DNA from: an uncultured Roseburia sp.
GTDB lineage: Bacteria > Bacillota > Clostridia > Lachnospirales > Lachnospiraceae
NCBI GenBank assembly: GCA_947088675.1
Contig: CAMUHN010000004.1
Span: 28,905 to 92,904, forward strand
Length of the DNA: 64,000 bases
Reading direction: 5' to 3'
Every line of letters starts with the position of its first letter. Position 1 is the first letter of the stretch. Below are positions 1 to 38,234 of the stretch, piece by piece. The position numbers and the translations under genes were made by a program. The notes below the pieces were generated by a model. That model did no database searches, was not told the DNA's origin, and was given only the letters and a program-made list of their open reading frames with translations.

Positions 1-108
1 ATGCTCATGCAGTTTCTGATGCAGCTGTTTTGGGTTGCCGTTTTCTTTGTTTTCAGTAAAATCTGCTGGAGAGCAGCAGTCAAAAGACTTACGGTGCTTG
101 GGGGTTAG
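1..108 (+). CDS. C-terminal end of an ABC-2 type permease (partial)
   Basis: Frame 1 is open from the first base and ends at TAG (106-108). The last 35 residues are hydrophobic (FLMQLFWVAVFFVFSKICW), followed by a short basic tail ending in VLGG. This resembles the last membrane segment and Gly-Gly end of the COG4587-type ABC-2 permease, whose usual partner (COG3694 type) lies just downstream at 263, so the two would form one exporter. The gene starts left of the window, and no ATPase is visible. The GGG GGT codons before the stop are part of the direct repeat that flanks the inserted element. The family assignment rests on a short tail plus context. Confidence 0.55.
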   Translation: MLMQFLMQLFWVAVFFVFSKICWRAAVKRLTVLGG

Positions 109-240
109 CGTGAAAAGTACATCTAAGGCTCATGCCAATGGGCATTTCGCCAACATGTACTATGTTTCACGCCAGAGAATCCCAAAATCAGGGATTCTCC
201 GCCCGGATATGAGTCGCAGCGAAGCTGCGACATGGGGGTT
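100..240 (+). mobile_element. structured intercistronic repeat, copy 1 (candidate small mobile element)
   Basis: A 127-bp body (107-233) lies between direct repeats GGGGGTT (100-106 and 234-240). Hairpin 1: 108-115 pairs with 165-172 and 116-122 with 155-161, with a 3-nt bulge at 162-164, enclosing a small hairpin ATGCC/GGCAT (132-136/141-145). Hairpin 2: GAGAATCCC/GGGATTCTC (175-183/191-199). Hairpin 3: GTCGCAGC-GAA-GCTGCGAC (213-231). Copy 2 at 19088-19243 keeps the same fold with changed bases. The AG that starts the body completes the TAG stop of the upstream gene. The family is not known to me; mobility is inferred from the flanking repeats. Confidence 0.75.
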
Positions 241-262: not shown

Positions 263-1054
263 ATGTTGCGTTACATTCATTTGTATAAAATATTTTTGCT
301 TCAGTATCTGAAATCGCTGATGCAGTCGAAGCTTGACTTTTTTATGGGTCTTTTTTCATTTTTCTTAAACCAGGTTCTTGGTATAGTTTTTTTGCAACTT
401 GTCTTTGCGCAGATTCCGGATCTATATGGATGGAGCTATGAGCAGCTGGTCTTTATCTACGGGTTTGCGCAGATTCCAAAAGGGATTGACCACTTTTTTA
501 CAGACTACCTGTGGGTATTCTGCAGAAAGACAGTGCGGGAGGGGGCGTTTGACCGATACTTGTTAAGGCCTGTGAACCCGCTGTTTCAGGTGCTGGTGGA
601 GCGCTGCCAGCCGGACGGGATTGGGGAAGTGATCGTTGGGGTGGTTCTTGTCGTCTATGCGGGCAAAAAGCTTCATCTTTCGTTTTCAGTAGTTTCTTTT
701 TTTGTATTTTTGATTGCCGTGTTTGCCGGGGCTGTAATCTATATGGCGGTGAAATTGTTTTTCGCGTCCAACGCATTTTTTATGAAAGATTGTTATAATC
801 TGTTGTATACGGCCTATAATATTTCGGATTTTGCAAAATATCCGACAGAGATCTATGAGAAGCCGGTGCGTTTTGTAGTAAGCTTTGTTTTGCCGTTTGC
901 GTTTACGGCGTTTATTCCCGCGCAGTATTTTATGAACGAAAGAACGCTGCTCCTTTCGGTTGGCGCGGAATGCCTGGCTGCAGCCGCGGCATTTAGTATT
1001 GCGTATCTTTATTTTTCGTTTGGGATAAAAAGGTATGAGAGTGCGGGAAACTGA
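263..1054 (+). CDS. ABC-2 family exporter permease (COG3694/PF06182 type)
   Basis: A 263-residue integral membrane protein with about six hydrophobic segments. The motif RYLLRPVNPLFQVL after the second segment is typical of the uncharacterised COG3694 permeases, which work with a COG4587 permease and a COG4586 ATPase. The partner permease ends at 108, so both subunits are probably in one transcript. Start: ATG 263 has GGAGGG at 252-257, 5 nt upstream; an in-frame ATG at 251 has no ribosome site of its own. Substrate unknown. The insertion at 100-240 lies between the two subunit genes and leaves the coding regions whole. Confidence 0.8.
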   Translation: MLRYIHLYKIFLLQYLKSLMQSKLDFFMGLFSFFLNQVLGIVFLQLVFAQIPDLYGWSYEQLVFIYGFAQIPKGIDHFFTDYLWVFCRKTVREGAFDRYLLRPVNPLFQVLVERCQPDGIGEVIVGVVLVVYAGKKLHLSFSVVSFFVFLIAVFAGAVIYMAVKLFFASNAFFMKDCYNLLYTAYNISDFAKYPTEIYEKPVRFVVSFVLPFAFTAFIPAQYFMNERTLLLSVGAECLAAAAAFSIAYLYFSFGIKRYESAGN

Positions 1055-18133: not shown

Positions 18134-19096
18134 ATGAACGACCGTTATGGAAGAACGATAAATTATATGAGAATTTCCGTCACCAAAAGCTGTAATCTAA
18201 GCTGCAGATATTGTATGCCGCCGGGAGAGCAGCGTGAGGTTTCCGAAAAACTGTTATCGGATTCGGAAATTTTTTGCGTGGCAAAAGCTGCTGCAGCGCT
18301 TGGGATTACGCAGTTTAAACTGACCGGGGGAGAGCCGCTGTTACGTCCGGGGATTGTGCGGCTTGCCGCGGCAATCAGGGCGTTTCCTGACACGACGGCC
18401 GTCACAATTACGACGAACGGCGTTCTGCTTGCCGGATTTGCAAAAGAGTTAAAGGAGGCAGGCGTAGATGCGGTAAACGTCAGCCTGGATACGCTTGATC
18501 CGTCTTACTTTCAATGGCTGACCGGACATGCCGCATTGGAACAGGTGACAGCGGGGATAGAGACTGCGCAGTCGGCGGGCCTTTTTGTCAGATTAAATGC
18601 AGTGTGGGGCCGGCAGTCGGATGGCAGAGAGCTGGTTCGTTTTGCACAGCAGAGAGGGCTTATCCTTAAGTTTATCGAGATGATGCCGGTCGGATATGGA
18701 AAAAATTTTGTTTCGGAGGAAAAGACGGATCTGATTTCGTTCCTGCAGGAACACTATGGTAAGGCGCAGCGCATAGATCAGCTCAGTTTTGGGGCAGGTC
18801 CTGCCGCATATTACAGGTTTGAAAAACTGCGTCATCCGATCGGACTGATACGTGCAGTCAGTCATCCTTTTTGCGAAACCTGCAACCGGATTCGGCTGAC
18901 AGCGGAAGGGAAGCTGAAACTGTGCCTTTCCTATCGGGATGGCGTCGATTTGCGGGAAGCATTAGAGCGCGGCGCCGGTGAGCGGGAACTGATCCGGATG
19001 ATGGAACAGGCGATTTATGAGAAACCGAAAAAACATAGTTTTCTGGAACCGGAAAAGATCACGGAACAGGGAGCTATGATTTCAATTGGAGGTTAG
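18134..19096 (+). CDS. moaA: GTP 3',8-cyclase MoaA
   Basis: Radical SAM enzyme for the first step of molybdenum cofactor synthesis. 320 residues. SCNLSCRYC gives the N-terminal CxxxCxxC cluster, and TGGEPLLRPG and TITTNGVLL follow. The C-terminal cluster is in PFCETCNRIRLT plus KLCLS. The end ISIGG is the Gly-Gly tail needed by the family. ATG 18134 is chosen because the protein then opens MNDRYGRTINYMRISVT as is normal. The stop TAG is partly supplied by the inserted repeat; without it the gene would end GGA GGT TGA with the same protein. Confidence 0.97.
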   Translation: MNDRYGRTINYMRISVTKSCNLSCRYCMPPGEQREVSEKLLSDSEIFCVAKAAAALGITQFKLTGGEPLLRPGIVRLAAAIRAFPDTTAVTITTNGVLLAGFAKELKEAGVDAVNVSLDTLDPSYFQWLTGHAALEQVTAGIETAQSAGLFVRLNAVWGRQSDGRELVRFAQQRGLILKFIEMMPVGYGKNFVSEEKTDLISFLQEHYGKAQRIDQLSFGAGPAAYYRFEKLRHPIGLIRAVSHPFCETCNRIRLTAEGKLKLCLSYRDGVDLREALERGAGERELIRMMEQAIYEKPKKHSFLEPEKITEQGAMISIGG

Positions 19097-19243
19097 TGTG
19101 AGAAGAACTTCTAAAACTCACGCCAGCGGGCGTTTCGCTAAGAAGTTCTAAGTCTCACACCAGAGAATCCCAAAAACACGCCATGTATGGCGTTGGATTC
19201 TCCGCGCAGATATGAGTCGCAGCGAAGCTGCGGCATGGAGGTT
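19088..19243 (+). mobile_element. structured intercistronic repeat, copy 2 (candidate small mobile element)
   Basis: A 142-bp body (19095-19236) lies between direct repeats GGAGGTT (19088-19094 and 19237-19243). Hairpin 1: GTGTGAGA/TCTCACAC (19096-19103/19153-19160) and AGAACTTCT/AGAAGTTCT (19104-19112/19141-19149), with a 3-nt bulge at the same place as in copy 1, and an inner hairpin ACGCC/GGCGT (19120-19124/19129-19133). Hairpin 2: GAGAATCC/GGATTCTC (19163-19170/19195-19202), with an extra inner stem ACGCCAT-GT-ATGGCGT not found in copy 1. Hairpin 3: GTCGCAGC-GAA-GCTGCGGC (19216-19234). The second GGAGGTT is the ribosome site of the next gene. Confidence 0.75.
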
Positions 19244-19247
19244 GAAA

Positions 19248-20699
19248 GTGGGGACAGTGAAAGCGGTCTGTATCAGTGAGAAGAGGGGTACGAACAAGAC
19301 GCCGGTGGAATGGGCAGATTTTGTGGAGAACTGGGGCATCCGCGGGGATGCGCATGCAGGAAACTGGCACAGGCAGGTCAGCCTGCTGTCTTTCGAAACA
19401 ATACAGGCATTCCGGGAGCGCGGAGCGGAGGTTGACTACGGGGCGTTTGGTGAAAATCTGGTGATAGAGGGATATGATTTTGCCCGTCTGCCGCTCGGTA
19501 CCAGAGTTTTGTGCGGGGAAGTGCTGCTCGAAATCACGCAGATCGGTAAAGAGTGCCACAGCCACTGTGAAATTTATAAAAAGATGGGCGAATGCATTAT
19601 GCCGACGCAGGGCGTATTTGCCGTCGTTTTAAAAGGCGGACGAATTGCTGTGGGGGAGAGGGCAGCGTGTATTCCTCCAAATCTTTTTGGGACGATTGCA
19701 AGCCGTCCAAAAGATGCGGACTGTGTGCTTGCGACTGTTATCGAAGGGCGAAATGCCGGGGAACAGGCGCTTTGGATAGATCGTGTTTTGCGTTTTTGCA
19801 GTTCCCCTGACGCTTTTTTTTCGAAACACGCACAGCAGTTTTATGATGCAGAAAAAAGCGGACTGATTTCGATGGATGGCCGCAGCGTTTTCTGTGAAAA
19901 AATTGGAGGCAGGAAGAATCTGGTTGTCTGCGGTGCAGGCCATGTCTCTGTGCCGATCATCGCATTGGGAAAACGTCTCGGTTTTTTTGTCACGGCAATC
20001 GATGACCGGGAATCGTTTGCACAGACTGCAAAAGCAGCCGGCGCGGATGAGGTGTGCTGTGAGTCATTTGAGACGGCGCTAAAGCGGGTGGACAAAAGCC
20101 GCGACACTTATTTTGTGATTGTGACAAGAGGGCATCAGTATGATATCGGGTGCCTGCGTATCGCTGTAAAAAAGGCGCATGCCTATATCGGAATGATGGG
20201 CAGCAGAACGCGCGCAGACGCTGTGAAAGAGCAATTGCGCACAGAGGGCGTGCCGGAGCAATTGTTAAAGCAGATTCATGCGCCGATTGGACTTGCAATC
20301 GGCGCAGAGTCGCCGGAGGAAATAGCCATATCTGTGATGGCCCAGATCATTTGGACAAAGAACCGGGAAAAGAGAATCGGAACTTACGATGCCATGCTTT
20401 TGGCTTATCTGACCAGAGAAAAAGGGGAGGGGAAAGAGATGGCGCTCTGTACGATCGTGGAAAAACACGGCTCTGCTCCGCGGGAAGTCGGAACGAAAAT
20501 GCTGGTCTTAGAAGACGGCAGCCTGGTCGGAACGATTGGAGGGGGAGCGGCGGAGCATGAAATCCGCCGGGAAGCGCTTACGTTACTCCAAAAGGGCGGA
20601 TCATTCGTTCAAAAGAGGCTGCAGCTGACTGCAGATGATGCGGCAGGGCAGGGGATGGTATGCGGCGGTACGATACTTGTAATTCTGCAAAAAATATAA
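19248..20699 (+). CDS. MOSC domain-XdhC fusion protein, molybdenum enzyme maturation
   Basis: 483 residues. Residues 1 to about 145 are a MOSC domain (WGIRGDAHAGNWHRQVSLLS; GAFGENLVIEG; GKECHSHCEIY). From about 224 there is an XdhC Rossmann domain (LVVCGAGHVSVPI; IVTRGHQYDIGCL; AYIGMMGSRTR), and from about 400 an XdhC/CoxI domain (CTIVEKHGSAPREVGTKML; GTIGGGAAEHEI). In usual XdhC proteins the CoxI part comes first, so the order here is swapped. It likely sulfurates or delivers molybdopterin to a hydroxylase. GTG 19248 has GGAGGT 5 nt upstream; an upstream in-frame ATG (19212) lies inside the repeat and is an artefact. Confidence 0.88.
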   Translation: MGTVKAVCISEKRGTNKTPVEWADFVENWGIRGDAHAGNWHRQVSLLSFETIQAFRERGAEVDYGAFGENLVIEGYDFARLPLGTRVLCGEVLLEITQIGKECHSHCEIYKKMGECIMPTQGVFAVVLKGGRIAVGERAACIPPNLFGTIASRPKDADCVLATVIEGRNAGEQALWIDRVLRFCSSPDAFFSKHAQQFYDAEKSGLISMDGRSVFCEKIGGRKNLVVCGAGHVSVPIIALGKRLGFFVTAIDDRESFAQTAKAAGADEVCCESFETALKRVDKSRDTYFVIVTRGHQYDIGCLRIAVKKAHAYIGMMGSRTRADAVKEQLRTEGVPEQLLKQIHAPIGLAIGAESPEEIAISVMAQIIWTKNREKRIGTYDAMLLAYLTREKGEGKEMALCTIVEKHGSAPREVGTKMLVLEDGSLVGTIGGGAAEHEIRREALTLLQKGGSFVQKRLQLTADDAAGQGMVCGGTILVILQKI

Positions 20700-35991: not shown

Positions 35992-38166
35992 TTGACGGCG
36001 CGAAGAAAAAGAAGAAAATTACAGTTAAAGTTTTTAAAGCGGATGCAGAAAAAGCTGGTCGTCATGTTTGTAGCTGTTTCGCTGATGCTGATTGGCCTTG
36101 TTGCGAGATTAATGTATATTGAGTATACCTCCGGAGAAAAATACGTAAAGATTGTATTGGCTCAGCAGGGGTATGACAGCCAGACGATTCCCTACCAGCG
36201 GGGGGATATTGTGGATGCAAAGGGAACGATATTTGCGACCAGTATCGCTGTCTACAATGTGATTCTCGACTGCTCGGTTATGACAAGCGATGAAAAATAT
36301 ATCGACCCGACAATCTCCGCCCTCTGCACCTGTTTTCAGGATCTTGACAAAAATGAACTGTACAGTTATGCAAGGGAGCAGGAGAAGAGCAAATATATTA
36401 TTTTAAAGAAAAAAATATCCTATGAGGAAATTCAGCCGTTTATCGGTTTACAGGAGGAGGAAAACGAGGACGGGGAGCTGGTCAATCCCAATATCAAAGG
36501 CGTCTGGTTTGAGAAAGAATACCAGCGTGAATACCCGCTCGGATCGCTTGCAAGCGCAGTGGTCGGGTTCACCACGTCGGGGAATGTCGGTATTAACGGC
36601 CTTGAAAATTTTTATAACGACAGGTTAAACGGTCTTGACGGCAGGCAGTACGGCTATTTAAATAATGATAATGATTTTGAAAAGACGATCAAGCCGGCAA
36701 TAAACGGAAATACGCTTGTCACAACTATAGACGCAAATATACAGACTGTTGTCGAAAAAAAAATAGCCGAATTTAACGAGGCGTACAAAGGAGCGTTTCG
36801 AGCCGGCGACGACGGTGCTACGCACATTGGAGTGCTGCTGATGGATCCGAATAACGGAGACGTTCTTGCGATGGCAAATTATCCGAATTACGATCTTGGC
36901 AATCCGAGAGATCTCTCGGCATACTATACGAAAGAAGAACTGGATGCAATGAACGAGGACGAGAAGCTTGATCAGCTGAATAAACTCTGGCAGAATTTCT
37001 GTACCACATATACGTATGAACCGGGATCGACAGCCAAGACGTTTACCATTGCAACAGGACTTGAGACAGGGGCGATGTCGGGCGGCGAGACATACTACTG
37101 CGACGGATTTGAGATGATGCCGGGCTATTCCAAGCCGATCCGCTGTGTCAGCCGCAGCGGACATGGGATGCAGACAATCTCGGAATCACTGATGAATTCC
37201 TGCAACGATGCGCTGATGCAGATGTCGTATGTGATTGGCGCCGAGGATTTCACAAAATACCAGCAGATTTTTGGCTTCGGACAAAAGACGAATATTGATT
37301 TACCGGGCGAAGCGCGGACGGATACGTTGATCTATACGTTGGAGAATATGACAAAAATTGACCTTGCGACAAATTCGTTCGGGCAGAATTATAATACGAC
37401 AATGATTCAGCTTGCGACGGCATTTTGTTCGCTTGTCAATGATGGTACGCTTTACCAGCCGCATGTGGTCAAACGAATTGTAGATGAAAAGGGCAATACA
37501 ATTGAGAATATTACACCGACTGTGCTGCGTCAGACTGTTTCAAAATCAACAGGTGATAAATTAAAGAGTTATATGCAGGATACGGTAGCGCTTGGCACCG
37601 GTAATACCGCAAAAGTAGACGGCTATTCTATGGGCGGCAAGACAGGGACGGCGCAGAAGAGAGGGCGTGACGGTGTCAATTACGTTGTTTCATTTATCGG
37701 GTTTGCTCCTGTAGAGGATCCAAAACTTGTCATCTATTGCGTAGTGGACGAGCCGAATGCAGAGGAACAGTATCATAGTACTTTTGCGCAGAATATTGCG
37801 CGGGAAATTTTAGAGGAAGTGCTTCCTTATTTAAATATCTATCGCGATGAGGAGGCAACAGGACTTCACGCCGGTTGGGATATCAGGGGAGAGGAGGCTG
37901 GGCAGCAGGCTCTGACAGACATTGTCAACGGCGATCATACACAGGAAACCGGTCCGATGGAAGGAGAACTGGATGTGCCGGATACCGGCGACCGGCTTGA
38001 AGGAAATCAGGACGGTTCCGCGGAACCGGGAGGAGATACGCCGCCGGAGGGTGAAAATGAGCCGGAGGGAGATACGCCAGAAGAAGGAGGAAATACGCCG
38101 CCGGAGGGTGAAAATGAGCCGGAGGGAGATACGCCAGAAGAAGGAGGAAATACGCCGCCGGAATAA
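35992..38166 (+). CDS. class B penicillin-binding protein, septal transpeptidase (FtsI/PBP2B type)
   Basis: 724 residues. A short basic cytosolic end, one membrane helix (about 20-42), a dimerisation domain (YQRGDIVDAKGTIFATS) and a transpeptidase domain with Ser346 in GSTAK, SCN at 403 and KTG at 550. It cross-links septal peptidoglycan. No PASTA domains; instead the end is an acidic low-complexity tail made of 19-residue repeats. TTG 35992 is the only start with a ribosome site (AGAGGT) that keeps the basic N-terminus. Confidence 0.92.
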   Translation: MTARRKRRKLQLKFLKRMQKKLVVMFVAVSLMLIGLVARLMYIEYTSGEKYVKIVLAQQGYDSQTIPYQRGDIVDAKGTIFATSIAVYNVILDCSVMTSDEKYIDPTISALCTCFQDLDKNELYSYAREQEKSKYIILKKKISYEEIQPFIGLQEEENEDGELVNPNIKGVWFEKEYQREYPLGSLASAVVGFTTSGNVGINGLENFYNDRLNGLDGRQYGYLNNDNDFEKTIKPAINGNTLVTTIDANIQTVVEKKIAEFNEAYKGAFRAGDDGATHIGVLLMDPNNGDVLAMANYPNYDLGNPRDLSAYYTKEELDAMNEDEKLDQLNKLWQNFCTTYTYEPGSTAKTFTIATGLETGAMSGGETYYCDGFEMMPGYSKPIRCVSRSGHGMQTISESLMNSCNDALMQMSYVIGAEDFTKYQQIFGFGQKTNIDLPGEARTDTLIYTLENMTKIDLATNSFGQNYNTTMIQLATAFCSLVNDGTLYQPHVVKRIVDEKGNTIENITPTVLRQTVSKSTGDKLKSYMQDTVALGTGNTAKVDGYSMGGKTGTAQKRGRDGVNYVVSFIGFAPVEDPKLVIYCVVDEPNAEEQYHSTFAQNIAREILEEVLPYLNIYRDEEATGLHAGWDIRGEEAGQQALTDIVNGDHTQETGPMEGELDVPDTGDRLEGNQDGSAEPGGDTPPEGENEPEGDTPEEGGNTPPEGENEPEGDTPEEGGNTPPE
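38038..38163 (+). repeat. 57-bp tandem repeat coding the acidic tail of the septal PBP
   Basis: Two identical units (38038-38094 and 38095-38151) plus the start of a third. Each codes 19 residues rich in Glu, Pro and Gly (TPPEGENEPEGDTPEEGGN). Copy-number change would keep the frame. Confidence 0.9.
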
Positions 38167-38176
38167 ACATATGTAT

Positions 38177-38234
38177 AACCTCGCAGAAGTTTGAATAAGA
38201 TTTTAAGAAAAAGAAAACTTTTGCGGGGTTTTTT
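38177..38234 (+). terminator. terminator hairpin overlapping the start region of the second PBP gene
   Basis: AACCTCGCAGAAGTTT (38177-38192) pairs with AAACTT-TTGCGGGGTT (38215-38230), followed by TTTT. The only Shine-Dalgarno-like GCGGGG before the ATG at 38237 is in the 3' arm, so the hairpin would both end transcripts and hide the ribosome site. Confidence 0.75.

Follow-up and report, generated by a model that had tools for sequence, protein, structure and literature searches.

The 64,000-nucleotide stretch of an uncultured Roseburia sp. genome analysed here (assembly GCA_947088675.1, contig CAMUHN010000004.1; hereafter the window) carries two copies of a small repeat, of which copy 2 lies between moaA and a gene encoding a MOSC-XdhC fusion. 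We consider that this repeat is probably a BOX-like, non-autonomous, modular hairpin element that spreads in Roseburia and in some other genomes of the family Lachnospiraceae, and whose ends suit it to gene junctions. The left end, TAGYGTGA, holds stop codons in two frames, and its right end, ATGGRGGTTA, is a strong Shine-Dalgarno (SD) sequence, sometimes with an ATG or GTG about 5 nt further on. A copy that inserts in sense orientation, either at the TA belonging to a native stop codon or between an SD and a start codon, would keep the upstream protein unchanged and hand the downstream gene a new SD, in which case the stop and the SD in use would be those of the element.

The genome containing the window (G000) gave 50 blastn rows for the unit, and matches were found in 14 of 62 genomes of the genus (E<=1e-4) and in 15 of 250 genomes drawn from the whole family (E<=1e-6), the own genome being included in both counts. 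A covariance model was built from 20 copies and the best 150 candidates per genome were scored, which at E<=0.01 returned 61 matches in G000 and 119 in G051, a relative that over the compared stretches is identical to an uncultured Roseburia metagenome-assembled genome (MAG), CAMUGE01; further matches came from G054 (24), G024 (13), G060 (6) and G052 (3). The unit is mostly 120-170 nt long and is present in many copies per genome, with its modules in the order hairpin A, an exchangeable hairpin B of the GAGAATCC, GAAAAACGCC or GTGAACAAAGTTCAC type, and hairpin C, and some copies form head-to-tail arrays linked by ATGGRGGTTAGYGTGA. The array statistics given below rest on 133 among the covariance matches listed, those omitted being chiefly weaker ones and two of G052; of 112 arrays in total, 8 were without sequence and 104 were analysed, with gene neighbours inferred from open frames, not from annotation. 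Further unit types, GTGAAATTAAAAATTTCAC...GCCCGCCAAAGCGGGC and a GTGCCGGGAACGTCACA-like module, occur at the same junctions (L033, L041 and many loci of G051).

The hairpins are conserved between copies. Changes on both sides of a pair were seen in 18 of 39 base pairs, and the covariation score was 0.33 as compared to 0.13 in shuffles, none of 500 of which reached it, and at most 0.08 in slid structures; one of five covariation measures, further pair types, was not raised (382/500 shuffles reached it). In the window, copy 2 folds into three hairpins (z -4.2, with 1 of 200 shuffles equally good) and copy 1 has a similar fold (z -6.2, 0/200 as good). Strong covariation, together with the sense bias and the intercistronic placement described below, would also suit a non-mobile, cis-acting RNA that evolved in place in operons and acts in processing, stability or attenuation. 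We find this distinctly improbable, since unit types differ at orthologous junctions, with array content there differing between the two species G000 and G051, since empty sites occur, and since two G051 copies at unrelated loci share a 148-bp stretch that is 100% identical. The 52 arrays of G051 had a median best identity to another copy of 95.0%, the 33 of G000 one of 89.5%, and we read such near-identical copies as recent spread.

For analysis of the left end, 14 of the 104 arrays were set aside (4 near contig ends and 10 preceded by another unit), and 72 of the remaining 90 start after TA. A co-directional upstream frame of at least 80 codons ends near the element in 70 arrays; in 28 of them its stop coincides exactly with the TAG (TAA in one array) of the left edge, at offset 0, whereas it is the TGA of YGTGA in 5 and lies 2-3 nt before the element in 8. 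The 28 stop-coincident arrays represent 24 sites, 4 being orthologous to another counted array; two frame-calling methods conflict for 2 of the 28, and the upstream frame of one, G051 C51:8195 (95 codons), is doubtful. Among TA-flanked arrays the stop positions were distributed 28:3:4 over the three reading frames (p 3.5e-8), where random insertion into coding ends would give equal numbers, and this test is independent of the crude chance model that assumes a uniform stop position over 151 nt. For comparison, TAG ends 9 of 42 long open reading frames in the window, moaA included. Moreover, the same TAG was found at the same codon in five of six element-free counterparts of stop-coincident arrays, with C-terminal residues the same up to substitutions; these are the G000 sites of G051 C1:62337, C1:70597 and C18:8091, the fabK-fabD site in G051 and the moaA site in a Roseburia MAG, while the sixth is the counterpart of G051 C36:20788, whose upstream frame does not look like a gene. 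The frame ratio and the stops shared with element-free counterparts indicate a tendency of the element to occupy native stops, and what a preceding sequence-only reading of the window had proposed for moaA, namely that the element harms neither neighbour, thus extends to other loci. An exception was seen at L009 (2974-2999), where a truncated copy ends the upstream gene, which we take to be aroA-like, 8 residues earlier than in G051, and at L019 (G000 C14:32828) the upstream frame runs through the whole unit, about 59 codons beyond the left edge. Among nine loci of other genera, the upstream stop was at offset 0 in two, and in four more it preceded the left edge by 2-11 nt.

At the right end, the commonest 7-mers in the 71 arrays with a recognisable right end were GGAGGTT (18), GGGGGTT (16), GGGAGTT (7) and GTTGGTT (6). 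A start codon opening a frame of at least 60 codons follows the SD by 2-13 nt in 25 of 70 right ends, and in 21 of the 70 the distance is 4-6 nt. At G051 C29:28852 the GTG of the element occupies the position of the ATG in the G000 ortholog, with the same codons following. The right end also precedes a start codon at some loci of other genera, for example GGGGGATAAGATG at L239, where the downstream frame, from its first residues, is presumably DnaG. Where no start codon was in range, the right end in several cases leads into a further unit or into a gene that has an SD of its own.

Placement relative to genes is strongly oriented. Neighbouring frames, given relative to the element, were ++ in 63 of the 104 arrays, +- in 19, -+ in 14 and -- in 2, with one side undetermined in 6, so that between co-directional genes the sense orientation prevails by 63:2. 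In 29/90 arrays an SD-like 4-mer lies within 12 nt on the left side of the element, as compared to 258/1775 control TA sites further upstream (p 3e-5), and such 4-mers were present at 12/28 stop-coincident sites versus 2/21 other TAA or TAG stops (p 0.011). In some empty counterparts the site is directly behind an SD (GGAGGATTTTCATG, GAGGGAATACTATG, GGGAGAATCTATG). This enrichment and the sense bias are what would be expected if SD/stop junctions were actively targeted, either through homology of the GGRGGTTA end to host SDs or through an RNA step. On the other hand, 61 of 90 left flanks hold no SD-like motif, some empty sites precede the SD or have none (G051 C3:115123, C67:2449), and purifying selection in tight operons would yield the same trend, and we therefore judge active targeting to be rather unlikely. 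Only tentatively can a wider form of this idea be put forward, in which a mobile element would find translation junctions by pairing or recombining its GGRGGTTA end with host SDs, insert in the sense direction between stop or SD and start, and act as a portable cassette of stop, hairpins, SD and start that rewires operons between their cistrons and at times supplies even the start codon, as may be the case at G051 C29:28852. We lean towards survival of harmless insertions, with some preference, as the explanation of the placement, rather than true targeting.

The sequence-only reading took the equal 7-mers at the two ends of each window copy as a sign of target duplication, and the element as one that seems to target GGRGGTT; neither a 7-bp duplication nor a fixed target of this kind was supported. 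Both window copies do have equal ends, GGAGGTT in copy 2 and GGGGGTT (100-106 and 234-240) in copy 1, and identity of left and right 7-mers was slightly more frequent than by chance, but it was limited to 4 of the 71 arrays (shuffled mean 1.1, p 0.013), and the mean similarity of left and right 7-mers was not raised (3.35 versus 3.27 in shuffles, p 0.18). The left 7-mers are diverse, having T at the last position in 63/71 and a G/A-rich stretch before it, and include GGAGGTT once and GGGGGTT twice. At fabK-fabD, the empty site in G051 reads GGGGAATAGAATGGG, and in the filled site the left 7-mer is GGGGAAT and the right one GGAGGTT (GGAGGTTGGCATGGG), from which it follows that the right SD arrived with the element. 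Hence a DNA transposon with GGRGGTT as its target and a 7-bp duplication, a model already contradicted at this pair (empty GGGGAATAG), is highly improbable, and 7-bp target duplication was rejected as a rule. Duplication of TA, a trait of TA-inserting miniature inverted-repeat transposable elements (ERIC, RUP, Correia), may have taken place in two pairs aligned by eye: at L004 the empty site is GTTATAATA-TA-AGATAAG and the filled site GTTATACTA-TA-G... and ...GGGGGT-TA-ATATGAATG, and the fabK-fabD pair agrees with one change. In the other two occupied/empty pairs, G051 C1:62337 and C1:70597, the element-free genome already carries TAGTGTG(A).

From the arrays in head-to-tail order and the handful of empty/filled pairs that could be read, we infer that the unit most likely moves in trans via a joined form with the junction GGRGGT-TA-GYGTGA, inserting at TA. 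This would involve a circle or a strand-transfer step that duplicates TA at most, and the observed pattern would then arise because insertions that do no harm persist, perhaps together with a degree of preference for SD-like targets. A repetitive extragenic palindrome (REP)-type element moved by a Y1 transposase (RAYT/IS200-IS605) would likewise show conserved end motifs, hairpins close to its two ends and head-to-tail units, and Y1_Tnp is present in 22/62 genomes of the genus. It is, however, found in 4 of 14 genus genomes with an element match versus 18 of 48 without, and was not detected in G000 or G051, the two richest genomes (87.6% and about 90% complete). A Y1 mover is thus improbable, and the Y1/RAYT transposase was set aside as a candidate on its absence from the two most copy-rich genomes, both of which are incomplete. 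Y1 transposase frames of 258-306 residues, presumably of RAYT size, are present in G009, G013, G026, G027, G035 and G044, which are genus members without an element match.

Several observations weigh against a mobile element with ends suited to gene junctions. In 42/70 arrays there is no stop at offset 0, and at least one of the 28 stop-coincident arrays, G051 C36:20788, has an upstream frame that probably does not represent a gene. No start codon was in range at 45/70 right ends, and use of the SD of the element is therefore not universal. Duplicated bases can be read at few clean insertions, as TA at L004 and, allowing for one change, as TA at fabK-fabD, and TAGTGTG(A) in the element-free sites of C1:62337 and C1:70597 may be the target or may be a scar of loss. 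Many orthologous sites carry other units or remnants in both species, so that insertion and later exchange are mixed, and gene conversion could contribute to, or be an alternative source of, the near-identical copies. Terminal inverted repeats were not seen by eye, and neither an autonomous relative nor a transposase was identified, Y1_Tnp being the only enzyme family searched for. Carriage by phages or plasmids was rejected, since blastn comparison of the unit with 50,697 phage and 72,556 plasmid records gave no match at E<=1e-5.

The features of the moaA junction and of copy 1 are listed in the following table.

Features of the two repeat copies in the window and of the neighbouring genes
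Feature	Position	Strand	Basis or remark
Repeat unit, copy 1	107..240	+	left edge supplies TAG stop (106-108) of upstream frame; right end GGGGGTT at 234-240
Gene 3' of copy 1 (ABC2_membrane_6)	263..1054	+	own SD, GGAGGG, nearer its ATG
moaA (Radical SAM, Mob_synth_C)	18134..19096	+	Pfam; C-terminus Ile-Gly-Gly-TAG
Left GGAGGTT	19088..19094	+	MoaA Gly-Gly codons and T of stop; host sequence
moaA TAG stop, left edge of element	19094..19096	+	offset 0 in stop test
Repeat unit, copy 2	19095..19243	+	covariance model match G000:C4:47999-48147, 140 bits
Hairpin A, GTGTGAGAAGAACTTCT...AGAAGTTCTAAGTCTCACAC	19096..19160	+	fold; compensatory changes
Hairpin B, GAGAATCC...GGATTCTC	19163..19202	+	fold; module type varies among copies
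Hairpin C, GTCGCAGCGAAGCTGCGGC	19216..19234	+	fold; compensatory changes
Right GGAGGTT	19237..19243	+	family's own right end; likely SD of next gene
MOSC-XdhC fusion gene, GTG start	19248..20699	+	sequence and Pfam

At this junction the sequence-only reading had been right in much of what it described. GGAGGTT is present at both ends of copy 2 and differs from the flanks of copy 1, the last moaA codons are ATT GGA GGT TAG, with the stop completed by the AG of the element, and the joined flanks would, by eye, read GGA GGT TGA and give the same MoaA end. The left GGAGGTT was probably the SD of the next gene before insertion, whereas the right one is likely the SD that the element itself provides for the MOSC-XdhC gene; the GTG (19248-19250) follows it by 4 nt, or 6 nt counted from GGAGG, and not by 5 nt as had been stated. 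This GTG is the likely start, because a TAG lies shortly before the GTG in an element-free relative. An in-frame ATG at 19212, just 5' of hairpin C, could start MOSC-XdhC 12 codons earlier (window 19212-19250).

MoaA ends in Gly-Gly-stop in 9/9 other genomes in which the moaA end was read. In one of these nine, G007, the end is GGA GGA TAA AATG, with the ATG of the next gene immediately after, and the MoaA Gly-Gly codons can therefore double as the SD of the next gene, which bears out the proposed overlap of stop codon and ribosome-binding site. In the nearest relative, a Roseburia MAG, the moaA site lacks the element, yet GGAGGTTAG is present twice, 28 nt apart. The moaA site alone is therefore no proof of duplication, and it may have changed before the two species parted. 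The MoaA of this MAG (L058 3001-4026) has an in-frame insertion of about 22 residues compared to that of the window (1026 versus 960 nt), the matches being split near query residue 217-224. Elsewhere in the window, a 57-nt tandem repeat (38029-38178) consists of two copies that are 98% alike and a partial copy. No curated Rfam model matched at the gathering score across the window, and none matched at E<=1 in 19060-19280.

Tight operons would be expected to exclude repeats that part a gene from its ribosome-binding site. The Roseburia repeat brings along the two signals required at an operon junction, which would explain dozens of copies inside operons. The paired empty and filled sites form a natural series of intercistronic spacers in which effects of the hairpins and of the new SD on the expression ratio of the neighbours could be followed, and in annotated genomes of gut bacteria belonging to this family the repeat may be a hidden cause of altered start and stop codons.

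Small repeats with some of these properties have been described in other bacteria. ERIC, a stem-loop repeat of 127 bp, ends in TA, duplicates TA and is found in many intergenic regions, and RU-1 is in some cases fused to gene 3' ends (PMC2759123, PMC2229807); both differ from the Roseburia repeat in having terminal inverted repeats and other hosts, and the available passages mention no SD end. REP sequences are palindromic, and 446 of 4,072 predicted in E. coli lie within 15 nt of a stop codon, where they are reported to stall ribosomes (PMC12306157). REP/RAYT systems have units of 20-40 bp, a GTAG tag and a Y1 transposase (PMC3733652, PMC12306157), unlike the Roseburia unit of 120-170 nt with its TAGYGTGA end. 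The bcr repeats of the Bacillus cereus group are 100-400 bp long, bcr1 averages 39 copies per strain, and their mobility is ascribed to a step resembling site-specific recombination (PMC6542083); they belong to another genus and have a TTTAT motif, and the passages of that source that were available give them no role at stop codons or SDs (PMC6542083). Literature searches among open-licence PMC articles gave none whose title or opening lines of the abstract dealt with a repeat of this sort in Lachnospiraceae or Roseburia, or with one that ends in an SD.

The closest likeness is to BOX of Streptococcus pneumoniae, which in the available sections comprises small modular repeats with predicted hairpins, 125 of them in one genome, with an element length that varies between strains (PMC3049150). 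There are 36 cases of a gene whose stop codon, at its very 3' end, lies in BOX, with no strong sign that the protein was cut short (PMC3049150), and the stop trick is therefore already known. In both systems, as far as these sections go, modular hairpin repeats are present in many copies and supply upstream stops, as a rule without evident truncation, the aroA-like gene being the exception seen here. On the other hand, target duplications and terminal inverted repeats are reported for BOX, which is found in excess between convergent genes (PMC3049150), whereas the Roseburia repeat is mostly in the sense direction between co-directional genes and its ends, TAGYGTGA and ATGGRGGTTA, are not complementary by eye. 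Moreover, the right end of the Roseburia repeat is an SD, at times followed after about 5 nt by a start codon, while the BOX sections describe no SD end. In conclusion, we would file the Roseburia element as a small interspersed repeat working like BOX, to which it is likened by its features and not by sequence homology, and its SD-bearing end appears to be new among such repeats.

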